Below are positions 224 to 11,411 of a DNA stretch of 11,606 bases, piece after piece. This DNA comes from Chloroflexota bacterium (GTDB lineage: Bacteria > Chloroflexota > Anaerolineae > Caldilineales > Caldilineaceae). The stretch covers positions 1 through 11,606 of the forward strand of contig QEUW01000261.1 in the NCBI GenBank assembly GCA_003577005.1, written 5' to 3'. A program made the position numbers and the translations under genes. The notes under the pieces were generated by a model. That model did no database searches and was not told the DNA's origin. It saw nothing but the letters and a program-made list of their open reading frames with translations. The stretch's first letter is position 1. Every line of letters begins with the position of its first letter.

Positions 224-1186
224 ATGACGCTAACCAACACCTATTCGACACCACAAACGGGCGACTTTGTGTTCCAAGATTTCCGGCTTGCCAGTGGCGC
301 AGCTCTGGACGAAGTCCGTATCCACTATCGCACACTGGGCGAGCCGCGGCGCGACGAACAGGGCGTTGTCCGCAACGCAGTGCTCATCCTCCACGGCACT
401 ACGGGGCAGGGCGGCAACTTTCTCAACGAGATCTTTGCCGGCGAACTCTTTGGGGACCGCTTTCCCCGCTACGGCTATCGTGACATGATCGCCGCGCAAT
501 ACCGGCTTGTCAGCGAAGGGTTGCAAATCAACCACCTGCGGCTGGTCATGGGAACTTCCATGGGTGGTATGCATACCTGGCTGTGGGGGCAGATCTATCC
601 CGATTTTATGGACGCCCTGCTGCCACTCGCCAGCCTGCCAACGCAGATCTCCGGGCGCAACCGCATGTGGCGCAAGCTGTTGAGTGATGCGATCCGGTCC
701 GACCTGGAATGGAACAACGGCGAGTACCAGGAGCAGCCGCGCAGCCTCTCCTTTGCGGCTGGTCTACTTTTCCTCATGGCGAGCAACCCGTTGATGCGCC
801 AGCAGCAGGCGCCTACATTCTCCCAGGCGGACCGGGTCTTTGAAGCCGCCGTGGCCGAAATGGTCACGCGTTTAGATGCCAACGATGTGCTCTACGCCAT
901 CGAAAGCTCGTGGGATTACGACCCTAGCCCCGGTCTGGAGCGGATCCAGGCACCCTTGCTCGCCATCAACTTTGCCGACGACCTGGTCAACCCGCCGGAA
1001 CTGGGCATCCTCGAACGGGAAATTCAGCGGGTGAGGCGAGGCAAAGCAATCGTGATGCCGTTGAGCGAGGCCACCGTGGGGCACGGCACGCACACCAAGG
1101 CAGGGGTATGGAAACACCATCTTGTTGATTTCTTGCGGGAGACCGCACAGCACGATTATGTTCGTACAACGTATGGGGGTAAATAA
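224..1186 (+). CDS. MetX-like alpha/beta hydrolase with an internal deletion
   Basis: This 320-residue protein belongs to the alpha/beta hydrolase group related to homoserine O-acetyltransferase (MetX). The nucleophile elbow GTSMGG is present with Ser112. Asp252 or Asp253 lies in the NFADDLVNPPELG segment, and the C-terminal GHGTHT (His287 or His290) completes the triad. Family members as I remember them continue from LFG with about 32 residues, including a strand ending in LPD and an IGHG.S.KPSDGL loop, before RFPRY. Here G77 is followed directly by D78-RFPRY (nt 452-460), so that core strand and loop are missing. The reading frame is otherwise intact. An AAGGAG at 205-210 lies 13 nt before the ATG. 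The next gene starts one base after this stop, implying co-translation. Substrate is unknown, and the deletion makes activity doubtful; it may be an in-frame pseudogene. Confidence 0.8.
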   Translation: MTLTNTYSTPQTGDFVFQDFRLASGAALDEVRIHYRTLGEPRRDEQGVVRNAVLILHGTTGQGGNFLNEIFAGELFGDRFPRYGYRDMIAAQYRLVSEGLQINHLRLVMGTSMGGMHTWLWGQIYPDFMDALLPLASLPTQISGRNRMWRKLLSDAIRSDLEWNNGEYQEQPRSLSFAAGLLFLMASNPLMRQQQAPTFSQADRVFEAAVAEMVTRLDANDVLYAIESSWDYDPSPGLERIQAPLLAINFADDLVNPPELGILEREIQRVRRGKAIVMPLSEATVGHGTHTKAGVWKHHLVDFLRETAQHDYVRTTYGGK

Positions 1187-1187
1187 C

Positions 1188-1910
1188 ATGCGGAAATCAC
1201 TCAGAGTAGGGGTCATCGGCGATTATAACCCTGCTTCTCGTTTTCATGCCGCAACCAACACGGCCTTGGGCCATGCCGCCGACGCGCTGGCCTTGGCCGT
1301 GGATGTGGAGTGGTTGCCAACGCCAGCGCTGGCCGAGGACGGATACGAGGCTGTCCTCATCCCATTCGACGCGTTATGGTGTGCCCCTGGCAGCCCGTAC
1401 CAGAGTATGGCTGGGGCGCTGCAGGCCATCCAGTTTGCCCGTGAACGGGGCCGGCCGTTCTTTGGCACCTGAGGAGGCTTTCAACATACTCTGGTAGAGT
1501 ATGCACGCAATGTCATGGGCATCGCCACCGCCGAGCATGAAGAATCCGCGCCCGATGCGCCGACGCTGGTTATCAGTCGCTTGTCCTGCTCGCTGGTAGA
1601 TACGACACAGACTATCCACCTGATGCCCAACTCGCTGGCCCAGCAGATTTACGGGCAGACCAAAGTGATAGAAGCCTTTTCCTGTAATTATGGACTCAAT
1701 CCTATCTATCGGGAACAGTTTCAGCAGAGCGAACTGCGCATCGCGGGCAGCGACCTGGAGGGCGAAGTGCGCATTGTCGAGTTGCCCGCGCATCCTTTTT
1801 TTCTAGCCACCCTCTTTTTGCCACAGATGCGCTCTTCCGCCGGGCGACCGCATCCACTGATCGCAAACTATCTAAGGGTGGCGTCACAGCAAAGGAAAAC
1901 AGGAGTGTGA
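1188..1910 (+). CDS. CTP synthase C-terminal-like GATase, probable selenoprotein (in-frame UGA = Sec95)
   Basis: Read through the TGA at 1470-1472, one continuous frame encodes 240 residues resembling the class I glutamine amidotransferase domain of CTP synthase, without the synthetase domain. Diagnostic stretches are RVGVIGDYNP (6-15), then FARERGRPFFGT-U-GGFQH (83-100) aligning with the CTP synthase nucleophile region, and a C-terminal HPFF...GRPHPLIANYL (202-229). The TGA occupies precisely the catalytic Cys codon. Both sides of it are well conserved in the same frame, and a SECIS-like hairpin follows at 1485-1503. I recall a named family, 'CTP synthase C-terminal region-related (seleno)protein', which fits. 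His202 is kept, but the Glu of the usual HPE motif is Phe204, so classical glutaminase activity is uncertain. The start at 1188 has GGGGGT upstream and follows the hydrolase stop by 1 nt. The alternative is a nonsense-mutated pseudogene. Confidence 0.8.
1470..1472 (+). other. In-frame UGA, probable selenocysteine codon
   Basis: The TGA replaces the nucleophilic cysteine codon in the GT-C-GGFQH motif of a class I GATase domain. Frame and family similarity continue without interruption for 145 residues after it. A cysteine codon (TGC or TGT) differs by one base, so point mutation or sequencing error must be excluded, but the adjacent hairpin favours Sec insertion. Confidence 0.75.
1485..1503 (+). 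promoter_or_regulatory. Candidate bacterial SECIS hairpin
   Basis: CATACTCT (1485-1492) and AGAGTATG (1496-1503) form a perfect 8-bp stem closing a GGT loop (1493-1495). The first loop base is 20 nt beyond the UGA. Known bacterial SECIS elements lie immediately 3' of the UGA, with the apical loop roughly 16-37 nt away and containing an essential G and U, as in the AGGUCU loop of E. coli fdhF. The hairpin lies inside the coding sequence for HTLVEYA. Its codons ACT, GTA and TAT are A/T-ending, unusual beside the GC-ending codons around it, consistent with selection on RNA structure. Confidence 0.75.
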
Positions 1911-2156: not shown

Positions 2157-3566
2157 ATGGAACCTAATGGAAACGGTAATCAATTCTCACGTCGCACCTT
2201 TCTACGGCTCAGCGGGGGACTCACTGGCGTGGCATTGCTTGCCGCCTGCGCCCCGGCCGGCGCCCCGGCCACGACCGGCAGCGGCGAAGCGGCCGCACCA
2301 GCCGCCGGCGTAACCGAGATCACCTTTATGGGCTGGGGCGGCGCCGAGGAAGATGAGGGCGTGCGCGCTGCCATCGATGTCTTCCAGGAAGAACAGCCCA
2401 ATATCAAAGTGACCTGGCTCCACACCCCCGAAAATTACCAGGACAAGTTTCTTGCCAACATTGCCGCTGGCACGCCGCCCGATACGGCTTTTATCCAGAG
2501 CGCCACCTTCCAGACCTTTGTGCGCGACAGGGTGTTAATGGACCTTACTGACCAGCTTGAAGCCGACACGCTGGTGGGCGCCGACGGCTATTTTATCGAG
2601 CCACAGGAGAGCCAGCGCTGCACGGTAGAGGGGCGTTGGTACGGCATCGGTTCGTGTTGGGTGGCGCCGCACATCTATTACAACGCCGATATCTTCACCG
2701 AAGCCGGTATCGAGCCGCCCAGCAACGACCCCGACGAAGCGTGGGCGTGGGACAAGTTTGTCGAAGTCGCCAAACAGTTGACGGTCGATGCCAACGGCAA
2801 TCACCCCGGCGACAGCGGTTTTGACCCTGACAACATCGAACGCTGGGGTGTCCACTGGCCCACGTGGTGGATTCCCATCCACTCGGCTATCGAAGCCAAT
2901 GGCGGCCACTGGATCGACCCGGACTCGGGTCTGCTGGTGCTCGACCAACCTGAGGCCACGCAAGCGATCCAGAACGTGGCCGACCTGGTGCTCGTCCACC
3001 AGGTGATGCCACAGGCCACGGCCATGGAAGCGCTGGGCATGAGCAATGCGCAAATGCTGGAAAACGGTCGCCTGGCTATGGCTATCGACGGCTCGTGGGC
3101 GCTGGCCTGGATCCACAAGATCGCGCCGACCTTGGGCACCGCCGCGCTGCCAGCCATGAAGACAACGGCCACCAATATGCAGGCGCATCTGCACTCGGCG
3201 CTTGCCGCCACGCAACACCCGGAAGAGGCCTGGCAGTGGGTGCGCTTCCTCTCGACACCATTCTACCAGACCCAGTTCTGCCAGATCGGGTTGTGGCTGC
3301 CCAGCCAGACGGCGCTGATGACCGAAGAGGGCTTACAGACCTGGATCACCGACGGCGTTCATCCGCCGGGCTATGAGCTCATCGCTACCGAGTTCGTGCC
3401 CCGCTTTGGCAAGGTGCTCTACCAGCCCATCGGCTGGCCGCGCGCCGACGCCATCATCACACCCGCGCTGGAGCGGGTCTGGATCGGTGACGCCACGGCG
3501 GAAGAAGCCATGGCCGAAGCCGTGCCCCAGGCGAACCAGGTGTTGGAAGAAGAGGCAGCGCGATAA
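2157..3566 (+). CDS. Sugar ABC transporter substrate-binding lipoprotein (family 1)
   Basis: A 469-residue extracellular solute-binding protein of the carbohydrate-uptake (MalE/UgpB-like) type. The N-terminus carries a twin-arginine motif, SRRTFLRL (11-18), then a hydrophobic stretch and the lipobox LAAC with Cys31. This predicts Tat export followed by lipid anchoring on the outer face of the membrane. A low-complexity Ala/Gly/Pro linker (32-51) precedes the folded domain starting [20 protein letters not shown]. Typical family features follow, including [12 protein letters not shown] and a [16 protein letters not shown] segment. Tryptophans are abundant, as expected for sugar stacking. The start has a strong AGGAGG at 2143-2148, 8 nt upstream. 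Two permease genes follow, so this is the first gene of an importer operon. The actual sugar cannot be read from sequence. Confidence 0.93.
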
Positions 3567-3567
3567 C

Positions 3568-3665
3568 TGTCAATTGTCAATTGTCAATGATCAATTGTTA
3601 ATGACAGGATCTCGTTGACGGCGAAGCCTCATTAACAATTGACCATTGATCGTTGAGCGTTGACA
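3568..3665. repeat. Large imperfect inverted repeat of TCAATTG-type heptamers
   Basis: Arms at 3568-3604 and 3629-3665 (37 nt each, 24-nt spacer) match at 30 of 37 positions, including a perfect 14-bp inner stem (TCAATTGTTAATGA against TCATTAACAATTGA). The left arm contains a GTCAATT heptamer in tandem. It fills the gap between the binding-protein stop and the permease start. In RNA it would form a strong stem-loop that could protect the upstream mRNA or lower permease expression, as the malE-malF intergenic repeats do in enterobacteria (inference). Confidence 0.8.
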
Positions 3666-3698
3666 ATTCCCCGTGTTTTGTAACGTTGAAGGAAAGCC

Positions 3699-4616
3699 AT
3701 GACCACATCAACCTGGTTTGAGCGGTTGGGGCCGCGTACGTTAGCGGGGCGGCGGACATTGGTGGGGTATGTTTTTATTTCACCCTTTATCCTGGGATTT
3801 TTGCTCTGGTTTCTGGCCCCGGCGGCGACCGCGGTCTGGCTGACCTTTCAGGACTGGAACCTGATCGCACCGCCGCGCTATGTGGGCTTTCGCAACATTG
3901 CGCGTTTGGGCAGCGACTCGCTTTTCTGGCAGTCGCTCAAGGTGACGACCAATTTTACGTTGATCTCAGTGCCGGTGGGGTTGGTGTTGGGCTTTGTCAT
4001 CGCGCTGCTCATGAACGCCAAGGTGCGCGGCATCGCCTTCTTCCGCACGATCTACTATCTGCCCAGCATCGTGCCGGCGGTGGCGAGCGCCGTGCTCTGG
4101 GCGTGGATCTTTAATACCGAGTTTGGCCTGGCTAACGTGCTGGTGCGCGCCCTGGGTTTCCCCAAGATCATGTGGCTGCAACAGCCGGAGTGGGCGCTGC
4201 CGGCGCTGATCATCATGAGTCTGTGGGGGCTGGGCGGTGGCATGGTCATCTATCTGGCCGGCTTGCAGGGTATCCCCGAAGTCTTCTATGAGGCGGCCAA
4301 GATCGACGGAGCCGGGCGCTGGGCGCAGTTGCGCCATATTACGATCCCGTTGATGTCGCCAATCATCTTTTTTAATCTGATCATTGGCATCATCGGCTCG
4401 TTTCAGGTCTTCACCGCCGGTTATCTGGTGACCAACGGCGGGCCGCAAAACGCGACACTCTTTTATGTGCTCTATCTCTATCGCAACGGCTTCCAGTTTC
4501 TCGACATGGGCTACGCCGCCACCCTCGCCTGGGTGCTCTTCTTTATCATCGTCTTGTTGACGCTCTTTGTCTTCAAGTACATCGGGGCGCGTGTCCATTA
4601 TGAAGATGGCCGGTAG
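3699..4616 (+). CDS. Sugar ABC transporter permease, MalF/UgpA type
   Basis: A 305-residue polytopic membrane protein, inner membrane component of a carbohydrate ABC importer. After a short basic cytoplasmic N-terminus, the first membrane segment spans about residues 22-45 ([19 protein letters not shown]). Further hydrophobic segments lie near 85-105, 118-138, 167-187, 222-240 and 272-295, giving the six-helix pattern of this family. The EAA loop that contacts the ATPase is clear at about 198-221 ([25 protein letters not shown]). AAGGA at 3689-3693 precedes the ATG. It lies between the binding-protein gene and the second permease, separated from both by repeat-bearing spacers of about 110-130 nt. 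Confidence 0.92.
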
Positions 4617-4618
4617 AG

Positions 4619-4636
4619 AATTGTCAATTGTCAATG
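4619..4636. repeat. Second copy of the TCAATTG heptamer repeat
   Basis: The 18-nt sequence AATTGTCAATTGTCAATG here is identical to 3572-3589 in the other intergenic gap of this operon. It begins 2 nt after the first permease stop. Unlike the first copy, it lacks a matching inverted arm. No reading frame covers it. Confidence 0.75.
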
Positions 4637-4729
4637 GCTGATGGGATCTGCGGGACAGCCGTGACAACGGAGCGCCAATGGCAGCACACAGGCGGCTAAA
4701 TAGGCGGGCTGGAGAAAGGAGAACGGCTT

Positions 4730-5629
4730 TTGAGCACCTTACAACAGGCGTCACCGGCGTCCACGCTGGCTGCACCCCAGGCGGCACGCAGCTGGCTCTG
4801 GCGTGAGGAGACTTGGTGGCGGGCGGCCATCTGGCTGATCTTGATCGCCGGTGCGGTCCTAATGGCGCTGCCCTTTGTCTGGTTGGTGATCAGTTCGCTC
4901 AAGCCCCAGCAGAAGATCTTTCTCTTCCCCCCCGAATGGATACCCAACCCGGTGCGCTGGGAGAACTATGTCGAGTCGCTGACCTACAAGCCCTTTGGCC
5001 TCTATATTCGCAATACGCTCTATATTGTGCTTTTGAACGAGATCGCCATCCTGTGGTCAGCTTCGTTTTGTGGCTACGGCTTTGCCCGGTTGCGCTTTCC
5101 TGGGCGTGACTTTTGGTTTGCCATTGTCATGGCGACGCTCATGGTGCCCTTCTTTGTCTTGATGGTGCCGCAGTTTGTCATCTTTAGCCGGCTCGGGTGG
5201 ATCAATACCTTTCATCCGCTGACGATTCCCTTCTTTTTTGGTGGCGGGGCCTTCAACATCTTTCTCTTCCGCCAGTTTTTCCGCACCCTGCCCGAAGAGC
5301 TGGCCGACGCTGCCCGTATCGACGGCTGTACCGAGTTTGGCGTCTACTGGCGCATCATGTTGCCGCTGACCAAGCCGGCGCTGGCGACGATTGCCATCTT
5401 TACCTTTCTCAACGGTTGGAACGACTTTATCGGTCCGCTGCTCTATCTCAATTCGCCGGAGAAATTTACCGTCGCCATCGGTCTGGCGACCTTCCGCAGC
5501 GTGATGAATACCCGCTGGGACCTGCTCATGGCCGCGTCCACGGCCATGATCCTGCCGGTGATCTTGCTCTTCTTTTTTGCACAGCGTTACTTTATCCAGG
5601 GGATTGTGTTGAGCGGGTTGAAGGGGTAG
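4730..5629 (+). CDS. Sugar ABC transporter permease, MalG/UgpE type (TTG start)
   Basis: A 299-residue inner-membrane permease, partner of the preceding one. The chosen start is TTG at 4730, supported by AAAGGAG at 4715-4721 (8-nt spacing) and by an N-terminus of ordinary length; no ATG lies nearby in frame. A Ser/Ala-rich cytoplasmic tail of about 30 residues leads into the first membrane helix (about 33-55, [21 protein letters not shown]), followed by the family's [10 protein letters not shown] and RNTLYIV segments. The EAA loop is at about 190-217 ([28 protein letters not shown]). The C-terminus [19 protein letters not shown] is the classic MalG-type ending. No ATP-binding subunit follows, so a shared MsmK/UgpC-like ATPase elsewhere is likely. 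Confidence 0.92.
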
Positions 5630-5763: not shown

Positions 5764-6480
5764 TCAACCGTGTAACCGCTCGACAAATGCCGCATGTTCC
5801 GGGGAGGACAGTCCCTGTTGCAGAATAGCGAGCAGCGCCGGCAGATCGTTTGACCAGATGGCGGCCGGTTGCAAATAGAGGCCGGGGAAGATCGCACTAC
5901 GCAGGATCCCATCAGCATCCGGCTCTTGGCGCTCATAGCCATTGTCACGCAAGATAAACCAGGCCACATCCTGTTCTAGTGTCAACAGGACCAGATACTC
6001 GGCCACCCCGTGCCGCGCATAGACATCCTTTTTCTGATTCATGTCATAGTTGCTGCTGCTGGCCGCGATTTCAACGATCAGTTCCGGTGGCCCTTCCAGG
6101 TAGCCGTCGGGGCCGATCCGCGAGCGGCCACCGTGTTCGGGGTCAAGCCGTAAAACGACATCGGGTTGCGGCTCGTTGAAGTAATCGAGACGGAGGGTTG
6201 CGTTGTCGCTACCACGCAGACCCGGGGTCGCGGCGGTGTAGACGCCCAGCCAGGTGATGATCAGAAAATGGGGGTCGCCGTGCGAATCAGCGCGTATCGG
6301 TGAAGGCATATAGACGATCCCTTCGATCAGTTCGGCCTTTTTGATTTCAGGGTGAGCCAGATAGCGCCGTTCGAACTCGGGGCGGGTCAGGTAGTCACCT
6401 GCCACCAGCGGTGGAACACCCGTTTGGAAGCTGGAATGGTTGGAAGCTTGTTTTGGTTGGTCAAGGGTCTGAACAGTCAT
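5764..6480 (-). CDS. Uma2 family (DUF820) endonuclease-like protein
   Basis: A 238-residue member of the Uma2/DUF820 family, which has a PD-(D/E)XK nuclease fold and is greatly expanded in Chloroflexota and cyanobacteria; its cellular role is not established. Family marks are KKAELIEGIVYMPSP (48-61), NEPQPDVVLRLDPEHGG with Asp107 (102-118), ELIVEIAASS with Glu137 (133-142), and the following Lys150/Lys151. These are the expected catalytic acidic and lysine residues. The C-terminal QQGLSSPEHAAFVERL also appears in relatives. I prefer the ATG at 6480 (MTVQTLDQP, with GGAAGG upstream), because relatives begin this way. An in-frame ATG at 6528 would add 16 residues. It stands alone between the ABC operon, which it faces tail to tail, and the SRPBCC gene. 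Confidence 0.87.
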   Translation of the reverse strand: MTVQTLDQPKQASNHSSFQTGVPPLVAGDYLTRPEFERRYLAHPEIKKAELIEGIVYMPSPIRADSHGDPHFLIITWLGVYTAATPGLRGSDNATLRLDYFNEPQPDVVLRLDPEHGGRSRIGPDGYLEGPPELIVEIAASSSNYDMNQKKDVYARHGVAEYLVLLTLEQDVAWFILRDNGYERQEPDADGILRSAIFPGLYLQPAAIWSNDLPALLAILQQGLSSPEHAAFVERLHG

Positions 6481-6637
6481 TGAGCGCCCTTCCACATGCA
6501 CAACTTGATCAGCTACGGTTGGGTTCATTATACCTTACCGTTACACGGCACGGCAATGTCTTGGATGACCGCCTTTTTCGTTATTTGCTTGCAGGTGGTT
6601 GCGGAAAACAACGACGTTATGATTTCAAGTTCATACC

Positions 6638-7525
6638 CTACTCGATCAACCCTTTCGCGACCTGTTCAATATGATGCTCCCATGCTGCCAATGCAGTCGC
6701 CTGATGCCCCACCGATTCATGGGATCCCGTCTGGGCGAGGATAAGGCGGGCGCCGTGGCCGGTGCCTTGTGCCAGTTCCCAGCGCACGCGACCGGCGGGG
6801 CGGCCCGCAACCTGCCACTCGTACTCAAGCAGGGTGGGAGATTCGACCGCGGTGACTGGACCGGCCTGCACCGCCTGGGTGGTAACCTCTTTGGGTGGCG
6901 CGCTACCGGCAGAGGGGGTGCTATCTCCGGTCAGCCTGGCCCAGACCTCGTCGATTGGTTTTATCAGTTGGCGCTCAAATCGCACCTGCCAGCCATCAGC
7001 CGTCGTCTCGACAGAGCCGGCGCTCAACCCCAAAGCGTCGGCATAGGCTTCGTGTAACTCGGCCATCTGGCGGCGCCATTCGGGCCCCGTATACGCTGCC
7101 TCGTCGACGGGTTTCCTGTCCAACACGTCTGCCATGGCACTCAGGCAGACCTGCCAGCCGGCGGCAAAACTGGCCGCGCCGGCCCGGTCGGCAAAGGTGT
7201 GGGTAAAGATCAACCGGCAGCCGTCACCGTCGGGCTGCAACTCCCAGCGGAGCAGGTCCCCGTACCAAGTGAAGGCCAGCAGGCGCGGCGGGTCAAGCTC
7301 GGTGATTTCGCCATCCGACGAGGGTTCTTTCGCACCCTTTTCGATAAAATGGACCTTGCCCCCAAGCCGGAGCTCGATCTCCACATCGAACGGAAACCAC
7401 TGGTTGAGCTGGGCGGGTTCGGTGAGGGCACGCCAGACTTTGGCGGGCGAGTGGGCAAAGCGCCGCTCCAGCAGCAGTTGGCTGCGACCGTTGTGGTGTG
7501 TTAGAGTTGGATTCAAAGTTCTCAT
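6638..7525 (-). CDS. Tandem SRPBCC (AHSA1-like) domain protein
   Basis: A 295-residue cytoplasmic protein with two START/SRPBCC-type domains. The first (about 15-136) has the typical AHSA1/CalC pattern: RRFAHSPAKVWRALTEPAQLNQWFPFDVEI, then LGGKVHF, DPPRLLAFTW and a GCRLIFTHTF strand followed by the long C-terminal helix. The second (about 178-292) begins similarly with WQVRFERQLIKPIDEVWARLTG. It has lost the central part of its first half, replaced by a Ser/Pro/Thr-rich stretch, but ends with RVRWELAQGTGHGARLILAQTG and a helix. These folds bind hydrophobic ligands; none can be named here. The gene lies 20 nt after an ArsR-type regulator, a common pairing. AAGGAAAG precedes the ATG at 7525. 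Confidence 0.85.
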   Translation of the reverse strand: MRTLNPTLTHHNGRSQLLLERRFAHSPAKVWRALTEPAQLNQWFPFDVEIELRLGGKVHFIEKGAKEPSSDGEITELDPPRLLAFTWYGDLLRWELQPDGDGCRLIFTHTFADRAGAASFAAGWQVCLSAMADVLDRKPVDEAAYTGPEWRRQMAELHEAYADALGLSAGSVETTADGWQVRFERQLIKPIDEVWARLTGDSTPSAGSAPPKEVTTQAVQAGPVTAVESPTLLEYEWQVAGRPAGRVRWELAQGTGHGARLILAQTGSHESVGHQATALAAWEHHIEQVAKGLIE

Positions 7526-7545
7526 CGCTCTTTCCTTTTTAAGAT

Positions 7546-7860
7546 TTACTCTGCGTCGGGCATGGTGTCGAGATGGCGCTCGAGCGCGTCAAGATGTTTC
7601 TCCCAGAGTCGGCGATAGGGGGCCAGCCATTCGTCTAGCTCGCTCAAAGCCTCGGGGCGCAGGGCGTAAAGGCGGCGTTGTGCATCCGGGCGCACCTCGA
7701 CCAGCCCTGCCTCCTTGAGGACACGCAGGTGTTTCGAGACGGCGGGCTGGCTTAACCCAAGCGCCTCCACGATCTCATTGACCGAGCGCTGGCCGTCGCG
7801 CAGCAGATCGAGGATGCGCCGCCGGTTTGGTTCTACGAGAACTGCGAAGAGTGTGTCCAC
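7546..7860 (-). CDS. ArsR family winged-helix repressor (GTG start)
   Basis: A 104-residue DNA-binding regulator. The winged-helix region is evident: VEPNRRRILDLLRDGQRSVNEIVEALGLSQPAVSKHLRVLKEAGLVEVRPDAQRRLYAL (9-67), with the recognition helix at SQPAVSKHLRVLKEAG. The cysteine metal-sensing motif of classical ArsR/SmtB proteins is absent, placing it with the metal-independent regulators typically found next to AHSA1-like genes. The C-terminal helix EWLAPYRRLWEKHLDALERHL is characteristic of that group. I choose the GTG at 7860, giving the family-like start MDTLFAVLVEPNRRRIL. An upstream in-frame TTG at 7896 coincides with a TTGACA promoter box. It is probably co-transcribed with the SRPBCC gene and autoregulated through the AT-rich dyads upstream. 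Confidence 0.88.
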   Translation of the reverse strand: MDTLFAVLVEPNRRRILDLLRDGQRSVNEIVEALGLSQPAVSKHLRVLKEAGLVEVRPDAQRRLYALRPEALSELDEWLAPYRRLWEKHLDALERHLDTMPDAE

Positions 7861-7863
7861 GGG

Positions 7864-7906
7864 ATATATATTGCCATAAAGGAATATATCTGTCAAGGCA
7901 TATATT
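7864..7906 (-). promoter_or_regulatory. ArsR promoter with overlapping AT-rich operator
   Basis: On the minus strand a consensus TTGACA (7896-7891) is followed after 18 nt by AATATA (7872-7867). Transcription would then begin at about 7860, the GTG start codon, giving a leaderless mRNA; no Shine-Dalgarno precedes that GTG. Imperfect inverted arms at 7866-7875 and 7897-7906 (ATATATTGCC and GGCATATATT), plus a third AT block at 7881-7890, flank and overlap the promoter boxes. Such a layout suits autorepression by the ArsR protein. Confidence 0.5.
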
Positions 7907-7983: not shown

Positions 7984-8799
7984 TCACATCCGCTCTGCGA
8001 GTTGTCTTTGTGGTCTGCGCTTGCCGTAGATGGCGCCACGACGCTGGTACCAGGTAGCAAACAAGGCTACGACCAGAAACAGTTCAGCGAGGTCGCCGCC
8101 GTAGTACATGAGTTGGGCCGCTGCCCGTATCTCGTCGGCGCTATGAGAGGTATTGGGAGGCCAGAGGTAGATGTACATAAGTTTGCTGAGATTGGCGTGG
8201 GCAGCGATGCCGATGAACAGCACGCCCAGGCGAGTGGCGAGACCCGGACGGCGTGGCATCGGGTCGGGACCGGCAATGGCCGCGGTGAACAGGCAGCCAG
8301 CCGCCAGGAAGTGGATTTGTACCAGATAATGCAAACTGGGGTTGGTCAAGCTCATGGCGTGAAGCGGTGTCAAGTACAGCAGGTACATTCCGCCGCTGTT
8401 CAACAGGAGTGCAGGGACCGGGTGGCTAAGCCACCGGCACGGCCAGCTATGCAATACGCTCGGGACAAATCGAGCGGTGCGAAGCGGCAACGTGCGCAGT
8501 GCCAATGTGACCGGAGCGGCAAAGACAAGCCCCAACGGGGCAAACATGCCGATCAGCAAGTGCTGGATCATGTGACCGCGCAGGTCATGATGCGCGCTGG
8601 TTGCCAATGGCGGTGAGAACGCGATGGCGAGTAGACCTATCCCGCTGACCATACTGAGGATGCGCCACCTGCTCCAGCGGCGCGGAAAGCGGCGCTGTCG
8701 CTTCGCCGCCACCAGGTAGGCAAACAGTACCCCGGCGATGATCAGCAACGGCGCAAGCGACAGCAGCGCGCCAGAATCAGTAGGGTGGTCATGCAACAT
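7984..8799 (-). CDS. CtaG-like cytochrome c oxidase assembly membrane protein
   Basis: A 271-residue multi-pass membrane protein of the CtaG/caa3-oxidase assembly family of Gram-positive and related bacteria (distinct from Cox11). The signature SAHHDLRGHMIQHLLIGMFAPLGLVFAAPVTLAL (68-101) is clear, with His70, His71, His76 and His80 as candidate copper ligands. GPDPMPRRP (177-185), AHANLSKLMYIYLWP (200-214) and the terminal QLMYYGGDLAELFLVVALF (229-247) follow in family order. Hydrophobic segments near 13-31, 47-62, 78-100, 126-146, 157-176, 190-209 and 234-250 suggest seven helices. The ATG at 8799 overlaps the DUF2243 stop by 11 nt, so translation is probably coupled. The role in oxidase maturation or copper handling is inferred from the family; it implies aerobic respiration. 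Confidence 0.87.
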   Translation of the reverse strand: MLHDHPTDSGALLSLAPLLIIAGVLFAYLVAAKRQRRFPRRWSRWRILSMVSGIGLLAIAFSPPLATSAHHDLRGHMIQHLLIGMFAPLGLVFAAPVTLALRTLPLRTARFVPSVLHSWPCRWLSHPVPALLLNSGGMYLLYLTPLHAMSLTNPSLHYLVQIHFLAAGCLFTAAIAGPDPMPRRPGLATRLGVLFIGIAAHANLSKLMYIYLWPPNTSHSADEIRAAAQLMYYGGDLAELFLVVALFATWYQRRGAIYGKRRPQRQLAERM

Positions 8800-9277
8800 T
8801 TTCACTGCTGGAAGCTGTACGGGTTTGTGACACTGGCCGCACTCGGAACGCCAACACAACGCCGATGACGATCAACGTAAGGCCAAACAGGTTCCACGCG
8901 ATGTCGTAAGGAAGAAGATAGACTCCGTAGCGGATCTGGTGCAGGCGCAACACCTTGTGGTTGACCAACCCGTCAAAAAGTTGAAAGCCGCCCGCACCCA
9001 GAAAAAAACCGGCCCACGCCCAGGCTGCTGCCAGAGCATTACGCCGGCGCAGATCAAGCAGCACGAAAAAGCCGGCTACAATCGCGATCAGTTCGGCCGC
9101 GTGCAGCAGCCCGTCTGACAGCAACCCGATGGCAGGGGTGGAGAGATCATAGAAGTGGTGCCAGGCTAACACCTGGTGAAAGATAATTTCGTCCACAGCA
9201 GCCATCATCCCGATGCCGGTGAGGGCTGCTGCCCACGTTGAGCGAGTTGGTTCACGAAGGTTTTGGTCTAGAGGCAT
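8789..9277 (-). CDS. DUF2243 family membrane protein
   Basis: A 162-residue integral membrane protein with the DUF2243 pattern. The signature is TGIGMMAAVDEIIFHQVLAWHHFY (20-43), then LLSDGLLHAAELIA (52-65), and GGFQLFDGLVNHKVLRLHQIR (96-116). Four hydrophobic segments lie near 17-34, 57-75, 83-103 and 125-145. His34, His40, His41, His59, His107 and His113 recur at helix ends, suggesting metal or heme binding; this is inference, and the family has no settled function. I prefer the ATG at 9277 (MPLDQNLREP), which gives the usual family length; an ATG at 9403 would add 42 poorly hydrophobic, atypical residues. It overlaps and precedes the CtaG-like gene, a pairing that points to a shared role in oxidase assembly. 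Confidence 0.85.
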   Translation of the reverse strand: MPLDQNLREPTRSTWAAALTGIGMMAAVDEIIFHQVLAWHHFYDLSTPAIGLLSDGLLHAAELIAIVAGFFVLLDLRRRNALAAAWAWAGFFLGAGGFQLFDGLVNHKVLRLHQIRYGVYLLPYDIAWNLFGLTLIVIGVVLAFRVRPVSQTRTASSSENVA

Positions 9278-9500
9278 CGTTCTGCTGCTTCCTGCTTCAT
9301 GTAACCGCTGGTATGATTGGGTAGGCGGAAGCAGCGCCGGCTCTGGGGCACAAAGGCTGTTCAGCCAGCCGGCGCATATACTCTCCCTGTCACAGTCTAC
9401 CACCTGCTTGTCATGAAACTACAGGCGAAAAGCTTTCTCACTGTACCAGGGCCAATCACGAGGATACATTTTGCTATCAATTGAAAATAACCGGTGACCT

Positions 9501-11411
<1,911 letters not shown>

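Follow-up and report, generated by a model that had tools for sequence, protein, structure and literature searches.

A predicted selenocysteine codon at the nucleophile position of a CTP synthase C-terminal-like protein from a Chloroflexota bacterium

The reading frame, its family and the in-frame TGA

The stretch of DNA analysed here (the window) comprises positions 1 to 11,606 of contig QEUW01000261.1, from a Chloroflexota bacterium of the family Caldilineaceae (assembly GCA_003577005.1), and contains a gene that we predict to encode a selenoprotein related to the C-terminal region of CTP synthase (Table 1). A first-pass annotation of the sequence had proposed a single frame interrupted by a lone TGA, and translation with TGA read as selenocysteine (Sec, U) bears this out: the frame 1188-1910 yields 240 residues, with codon 95 (1470-1472) as its sole internal TGA, in the context RPFFGT-U-GGFQHTLVEYAR, and it terminates at a further TGA (1908-1910). 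As the same annotation anticipated, gene calling under translation table 11 splits the frame, giving one open reading frame (ORF) that runs to 1472, for which the tool chose the upstream TTG at 1122 as start, and a second that spans 1515-1910.

The read-through protein matches the NCBIfam family NF004836 with 332 bits (cut-off 260), residues 5-232 covering profile positions 1-227 of 228. Both halves lie in this one continuous match, so the sequence on either side of the TGA is family-like, as had been claimed. The family, which also goes under PRK06186, is named "CTP synthase C-terminal region-related (seleno)protein", and is hence the '(seleno)protein' family to which the first-pass annotation had pointed; at its characteristic Cys/Sec site, GxUxG, the window carries its TGA within GTUGG. 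The two models for CTP synthase proper (PyrG) reach just 131 and 126 bits against cut-offs of 308 and 462.75, and the PyrG profile match is confined to about positions 288-531 at the C-terminal end, without the N-terminal synthase domain. Pfam recognizes a class-I glutamine amidotransferase (GATase; 31.7 bits), and a structure model of the 240-residue protein has a mean predicted local distance difference test score (pLDDT) of 96.4; the fold is predicted to be that of the class I glutamine amidotransferases, like the glutaminase domain of CTP synthase. Alignment with E. coli CTP synthase places residue 95 at Cys379, and the TGA thus falls at the amidotransferase nucleophile, where the first-pass annotation had located it.

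A translated scan of named genome contigs, which took peptides of the window as its seeds and therefore reaches close relatives only, recovered eight relatives (six from Chloroflexota and one each from Thermodesulfobacteriota and Rokubacteria), all of which have TGA at codon 95. This, taken together with the continuous NF004836 match over both halves, argues that the frame with its TGA is not a product of chance. Larger genome samples, each containing its own centre genome that was picked for having the gene, gave further family members. The 400 Chloroflexota genomes contain 16 family places in 13 genomes, four with one TGA and 12 without a stop; their scores are 214-333 bits, and CTP synthases, the group that follows, begin at 166. 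The phylum of the Rokubacteria relative (95 genomes) has 21 family places, 18 of them with one TGA; that of the Thermodesulfobacteriota relative (395 genomes) has two, both with one TGA, the match of one beginning only at profile position 77; and the taxonomic family of genome G003 (52 genomes) has five, two with TGA. Once duplicate rows, indistinguishable in their DNA near the codon, had been removed and three Chloroflexota second copies left out, 62 rows remained: 29 TGA genes (the window and 28 distinct relatives), 15 genes with Cys and 18 CTP synthases. The TGA aligns to codon 95 in every TGA row. The prediction that homologues would have either Cys or TGA at this codon therefore holds throughout the 44 family rows read from DNA, with 29 TGA, 15 Cys and TGG in none. 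Database relatives, where named at all, are mostly called "CTP synthase (UTP-ammonia lyase)".

These comparisons bear directly on two alternatives to selenocysteine. The TGA might be a true stop, the locus being a pseudogene or two short genes, and the division of the frame by a standard caller is what such a locus would give; this is very improbable, as 28 distinct relatives share the TGA codon and show 40-60% identity on either side of it. No further stop lies within the family matches, either in the relatives or in the Chloroflexota, Thermodesulfobacteriota and Rokubacteria phylum samples, and the random stops elsewhere in homologues that the first-pass annotation had set against its own proposal are thus absent from the matches. 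Alternatively, a variant code might read TGA as Trp or another ordinary residue, as might be surmised from the 121-row protein alignment, in which residue 95 is C in 114 rows (the window being written C), W in six and L in one. This is scarcely credible, as TGG is absent from the family rows read from DNA and the window also uses TGA as a stop, both in the 1188-1910 gene and in the minus-strand gene at 5764-6528. Moreover, on a quick tree of 81 rows with residue 95 masked, a group of 18 (support 91, not starred) unites all six W rows and the single L row with the window, eight other TGA genes and two Cys rows. The grouping of the W rows with TGA genes is consistent with mistranslation of the TGA by gene callers set to code 4, which we infer for the W rows; the L is not explained in this way.

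On the same tree the TGA label changes at least twice on starred branches and seven times by parsimony. L028 and L029 form long branches of unsure placement. One row from a Chloroflexota genome (L025, genome G064) is placed among the Sec genes of Rokubacteria, and transfer or mis-binning is therefore possible.

Table 1. Predicted genes, codons and RNA feature of the window
Feature	Position	Strand	Remarks
Predicted selenoprotein gene, family NF004836	1188..1910	+	240 residues; one predicted Sec-TGA inside the frame; stop codon TGA
Codon 95 (TGA), predicted Sec aligned with CTP-synthase nucleophile Cys379	1470..1472	+	E. coli CTP synthase alignment; TGA shared by 28 distinct relatives
Predicted bacterial SECIS hairpin, stem CAUACUCU / AGAGUAUG, loop GGU (1493-1495)	1485..1503	+	UGA-loop gap 20 nt
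Cys134 codon	1587..1589	+	Cys in 160/164 family rows, 0/18 CTP-synthase rows
Cys166 codon, aligned with His469 of E. coli CTP synthase	1683..1685	+	Cys in 163/164 family rows, 0/18 CTP-synthase rows
Codons 211-213, Leu-Pro-Gln, at the place of CTP-synthase catalytic His515-Pro-Glu517	1818..1826	+	E. coli alignment
MetX-like alpha/beta hydrolase gene (NF005071)	224..1186	+	Upstream; ends 1 nt before ATG at 1188
Sugar ABC transporter-like genes (binding protein, two permeases); GH127-type glycosidase	2157-5629, 9501-11411		Glycosidase resembles aceric acid hydrolase, below cut-off
Uma2-family nuclease-like gene	5764-6528	-	Pfam; stop TGA
AHSA1-domain protein with ArsR-type regulator	6638-7896	-	Pfam
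CtaG-like and DUF2243 membrane proteins	7984-9403	-	Pfam

Hairpin and selenocysteine machinery

A candidate bacterial selenocysteine insertion sequence (bSECIS) begins 12 nt past the TGA, where the window DNA at 1485-1503 reads CATACTCT-GGT-AGAGTATG and forms eight pairs. The published constraints call for a loop of 3-9 nt with G in its first two positions, a stem of 4-16 bp and a spacing of 16-37 nt (PMC13188914), and the GGU loop, 8-bp stem and 20-nt gap of the window hairpin fall within all of them. Stems of 8-9 pairs occur at this place in 12/29 TGA rows, and stems of at least eight pairs in none of the 15 Cys rows and one of the 18 CTP-synthase rows; per gene, just 3-24 of 2000 synonymous-codon shuffles reach an 8-9-pair stem. 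Nine of the 12 hairpin rows belong to the window's tree group; L068-L070, which make up the rest, lie in loci of 70-72% GC and retain A/T-ending codons at the hairpin. The loop of the best model hairpin lies 20-21 nt past the codon in 25/29 TGA rows and 0/33 others, these rows being related to one another. The informative features of the hairpin are its stem length and position, not its folding energy.

The genomes of the relatives for the most part also encode the proteins and the tRNA for selenocysteine decoding. SelB is found above cut-off in 26/27 genomes tested that have a TGA gene, namely in all eight of G001-G008, in G064 but not in G103, and in 18/18 of the Rokubacteria phylum; in the total of 27, G007 is counted once and G537 is left out. 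SelD is present in 11/11 relatives' genomes searched, each time with an internal TGA of its own (for example G003:C7:143218-144150), SelA passes its cut-off in seven of 11, with two partial and two without it at the limit used, and tRNA-Sec (selC) passes in seven of eight, with one borderline. In the window itself, an Rfam scan gave no match at gathering scores and ARAGORN found no tRNA.

Several of these observations weigh against a straightforward reading of the hairpin and the machinery as evidence for selenocysteine. The bare window hairpin has a minimum free energy of -7.4 kcal/mol, when the published limit is -7.5 kcal/mol or lower (PMC13188914), the 39-nt stretch reaching -8.5. Bare hairpins that pass all the published bSECIS limits including energy occur in 4/29 TGA, 2/15 Cys and 3/18 CTP-synthase rows, and relative to synonymous shuffles the folding energies of TGA rows are not set apart (mean z -0.93, against -0.35 for Cys and -0.50 for CTP synthase). 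The 12 hairpin rows are related and do not amount to 12 independent tests. A second type of hairpin, with a CGCGA/UCGCG stem, is seen in 15 TGA rows, its stem being reached by 326-560 of 2000 shuffles. As for the machinery, in G103, a genome with a TGA gene, the only SelB match is broken and below threshold, and SelA is missing at the limit used; the cut-off for tRNA-Sec is permissive, with 5/14 control genomes also passing it; and SelB occurs in 307/400 Chloroflexota genomes, in 83/95 of the Rokubacteria relative's phylum and in all nine Chloroflexota genomes with the Cys form. Because SelB is so common regardless of the gene, its presence in the relatives is necessary but hardly discriminating, and it was rejected as a discriminating test for Sec decoding, its base rate being too high. 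All the same, the TGA at 1470-1472 is very likely decoded as selenocysteine, and UGA at codon 95 would be read by SelB together with Sec-tRNA.

The altered active site and its possible chemistry

The catalytic triad of class I glutamine amidotransferases is Cys-His-Glu (PMC9138612), and the window protein departs from it at two of the three positions, with Leu211 and Gln213. The HPE motif is present in 18/18 CTP-synthase rows, while His at 211 is found in 0/164 family rows and Glu at the catalytic Glu position in 10/164. The arginines equivalent to Arg468 and Arg470 are replaced in the window, the latter position being Arg in just 3/164 family rows. The nucleophile, Gln99 and Glu119 positions are retained in the family, which has, in addition, the near-invariant residues His20, His100, His117, Cys134 and Cys166, absent from the CTP-synthase rows. 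A divergent member (L027, genome G365) keeps Cys95 and has lost Gln99, His100, Glu119, Cys134 and Cys166 together.

Since the catalytic His is lost in every family row compared, ordinary glutamine hydrolysis is unlikely, and the hint in the first-pass annotation that the reaction might be a different one gains strength accordingly from the residues. We lean slightly towards selenol/thiol redox chemistry, instead of glutaminase activity, as the function of the family. Under such a scheme, the pocket that once served glutamine would hold an oxidised or electrophilic substrate for attack by the Sec95 selenolate, the adduct might then be resolved as a selenenylsulfide by Cys166, Cys134 or both, and a cellular reductant would reset this selenenylsulfide.

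The main rival to redox chemistry is a hydrolase or acyl transferase with a replacement base, in which an amide, ester or thioester would be the target of the selenolate and the conserved His100 or His117, or the low pKa of Sec, would take the place of the lost His. The change from Cys to Sec is treated mainly as a gain in thiol-based oxidoreductases (PMC13188914), which argues against this possibility, as do the loss of the His in 164/164 rows and of the Glu in 154/164 and the near-absence of Arg from the Arg470 position. It also leaves the two extra cysteines unexplained, and we regard it as rather unlikely. A sensor or scavenger of electrophiles, or a metal-binding protein acting through Sec95, Cys134, Cys166 and His, would be in keeping with the near-invariant histidines and cysteines that CTP synthases lack, and such a protein might be compared with the DJ-1-like members of the same superfamily. 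Nothing indicates a sensor partner, and this alternative seems improbable. DJ-1-like proteins are absent among the 50 matches listed, which excludes nothing.

Other points count against selenol redox chemistry as the function. The position of the oxyanion-loop Gly352, Gly in the window, is Ala in 14/29 TGA rows. Most database rows are Cys forms that lack the catalytic His as well, implying that Sec is not required for activity. No conserved gene neighbour indicating a pathway was found at 46 other loci, where 20 neighbours were looked up in Pfam and the ORF picker was unreliable in the GC-rich Rokubacteria loci. With these in mind, we propose only tentatively, as a scenario that may well prove wrong, that a glutaminase fold was converted into a selenol oxidoreductase: the triad would have been dismantled, two resolving cysteines gained, and the retained nucleophile exchanged repeatedly, Cys for Sec or Sec for Cys, across three or more bacterial phyla, in part with a single shared SECIS hairpin inside the coding region.

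Such genes are cut in two by standard gene calling, as seen in the window, and a likely selenium-dependent enzyme in environmental Chloroflexota, Thermodesulfobacteriota and Rokubacteria is therefore easily missed. The residue comparison provides this orphan family with a hypothesis, namely that it is not a glutaminase and that Sec95 with Cys134/Cys166 forms a candidate redox site, and the related Cys and Sec forms offer natural pairs for gauging the contribution of selenium.

Gene neighbourhood and comparison with known systems

The MetX-like gene upstream of the predicted selenoprotein gene ends just 1 nt before its ATG, and the two are therefore probably co-transcribed. A functional tie between it and the NF004836 family probably does not exist; no MetX-like homologue was present among the ORFs picked from the 46 other loci, ORF picking being poor in GC-rich ones. 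Elsewhere the contexts are diverse. In L001 (4667-9944) the Sec gene lies in a histidine-biosynthesis-type cluster, with a histidinol dehydrogenase gene ending 2 nt upstream and an aminotransferase and a second, hisH-like GATase downstream. L002 (1176-6718) has downstream genes in common with L001 and a tRNA-binding-domain protein as its upstream neighbour. In L003 (4258-6681) and L004 (4252-6687) the Sec gene begins right after the stop of a CTP synthase-like (pyrG-like) gene of ~580 codons.

The family is already known as a predicted selenoprotein, to which the window gene adds a member. A COG0504-like 'glutamine amidotransferase' selenoprotein was predicted by deep-Sep in Desulfosediminicola ganghwensis, where homologues with TGA and with Cys are described together with a SECIS-like structure downstream of the codon (PMC12013277), and a 2026 review lists the family as a selenoprotein with the motif GxUxG (PMC13188914). 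Neither source gives a function for it in the available text, and a search of titles and abstracts found no biochemical study of the NF004836 family, these two being the sole papers found to name it; PMC12575083 turned out to be unrelated. The D. ganghwensis protein shares with that of the window the Sec at GxUxG, the Cys homologues and the SECIS-like structure; it comes from another organism, whereas the window gene groups mainly with Chloroflexota relatives. Neither the missing catalytic His nor the pair of extra cysteines is mentioned in the available text of PMC12013277 and PMC13188914; both are added here.

Among stand-alone glutaminase-type folds, PuuD and SpuA have 18 and 16% identity, respectively, to the window protein. 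The matches listed include an H221N mutant of SpuA carrying a glutamyl-thioester, an indication that a catalytic His is at work in SpuA. Compared with the glutaminase (GAT) domain of PyrG, the window protein is without a synthase domain, has His515, Glu517 and Arg468/Arg470 replaced, and carries a predicted Sec in place of the nucleophile Cys379.
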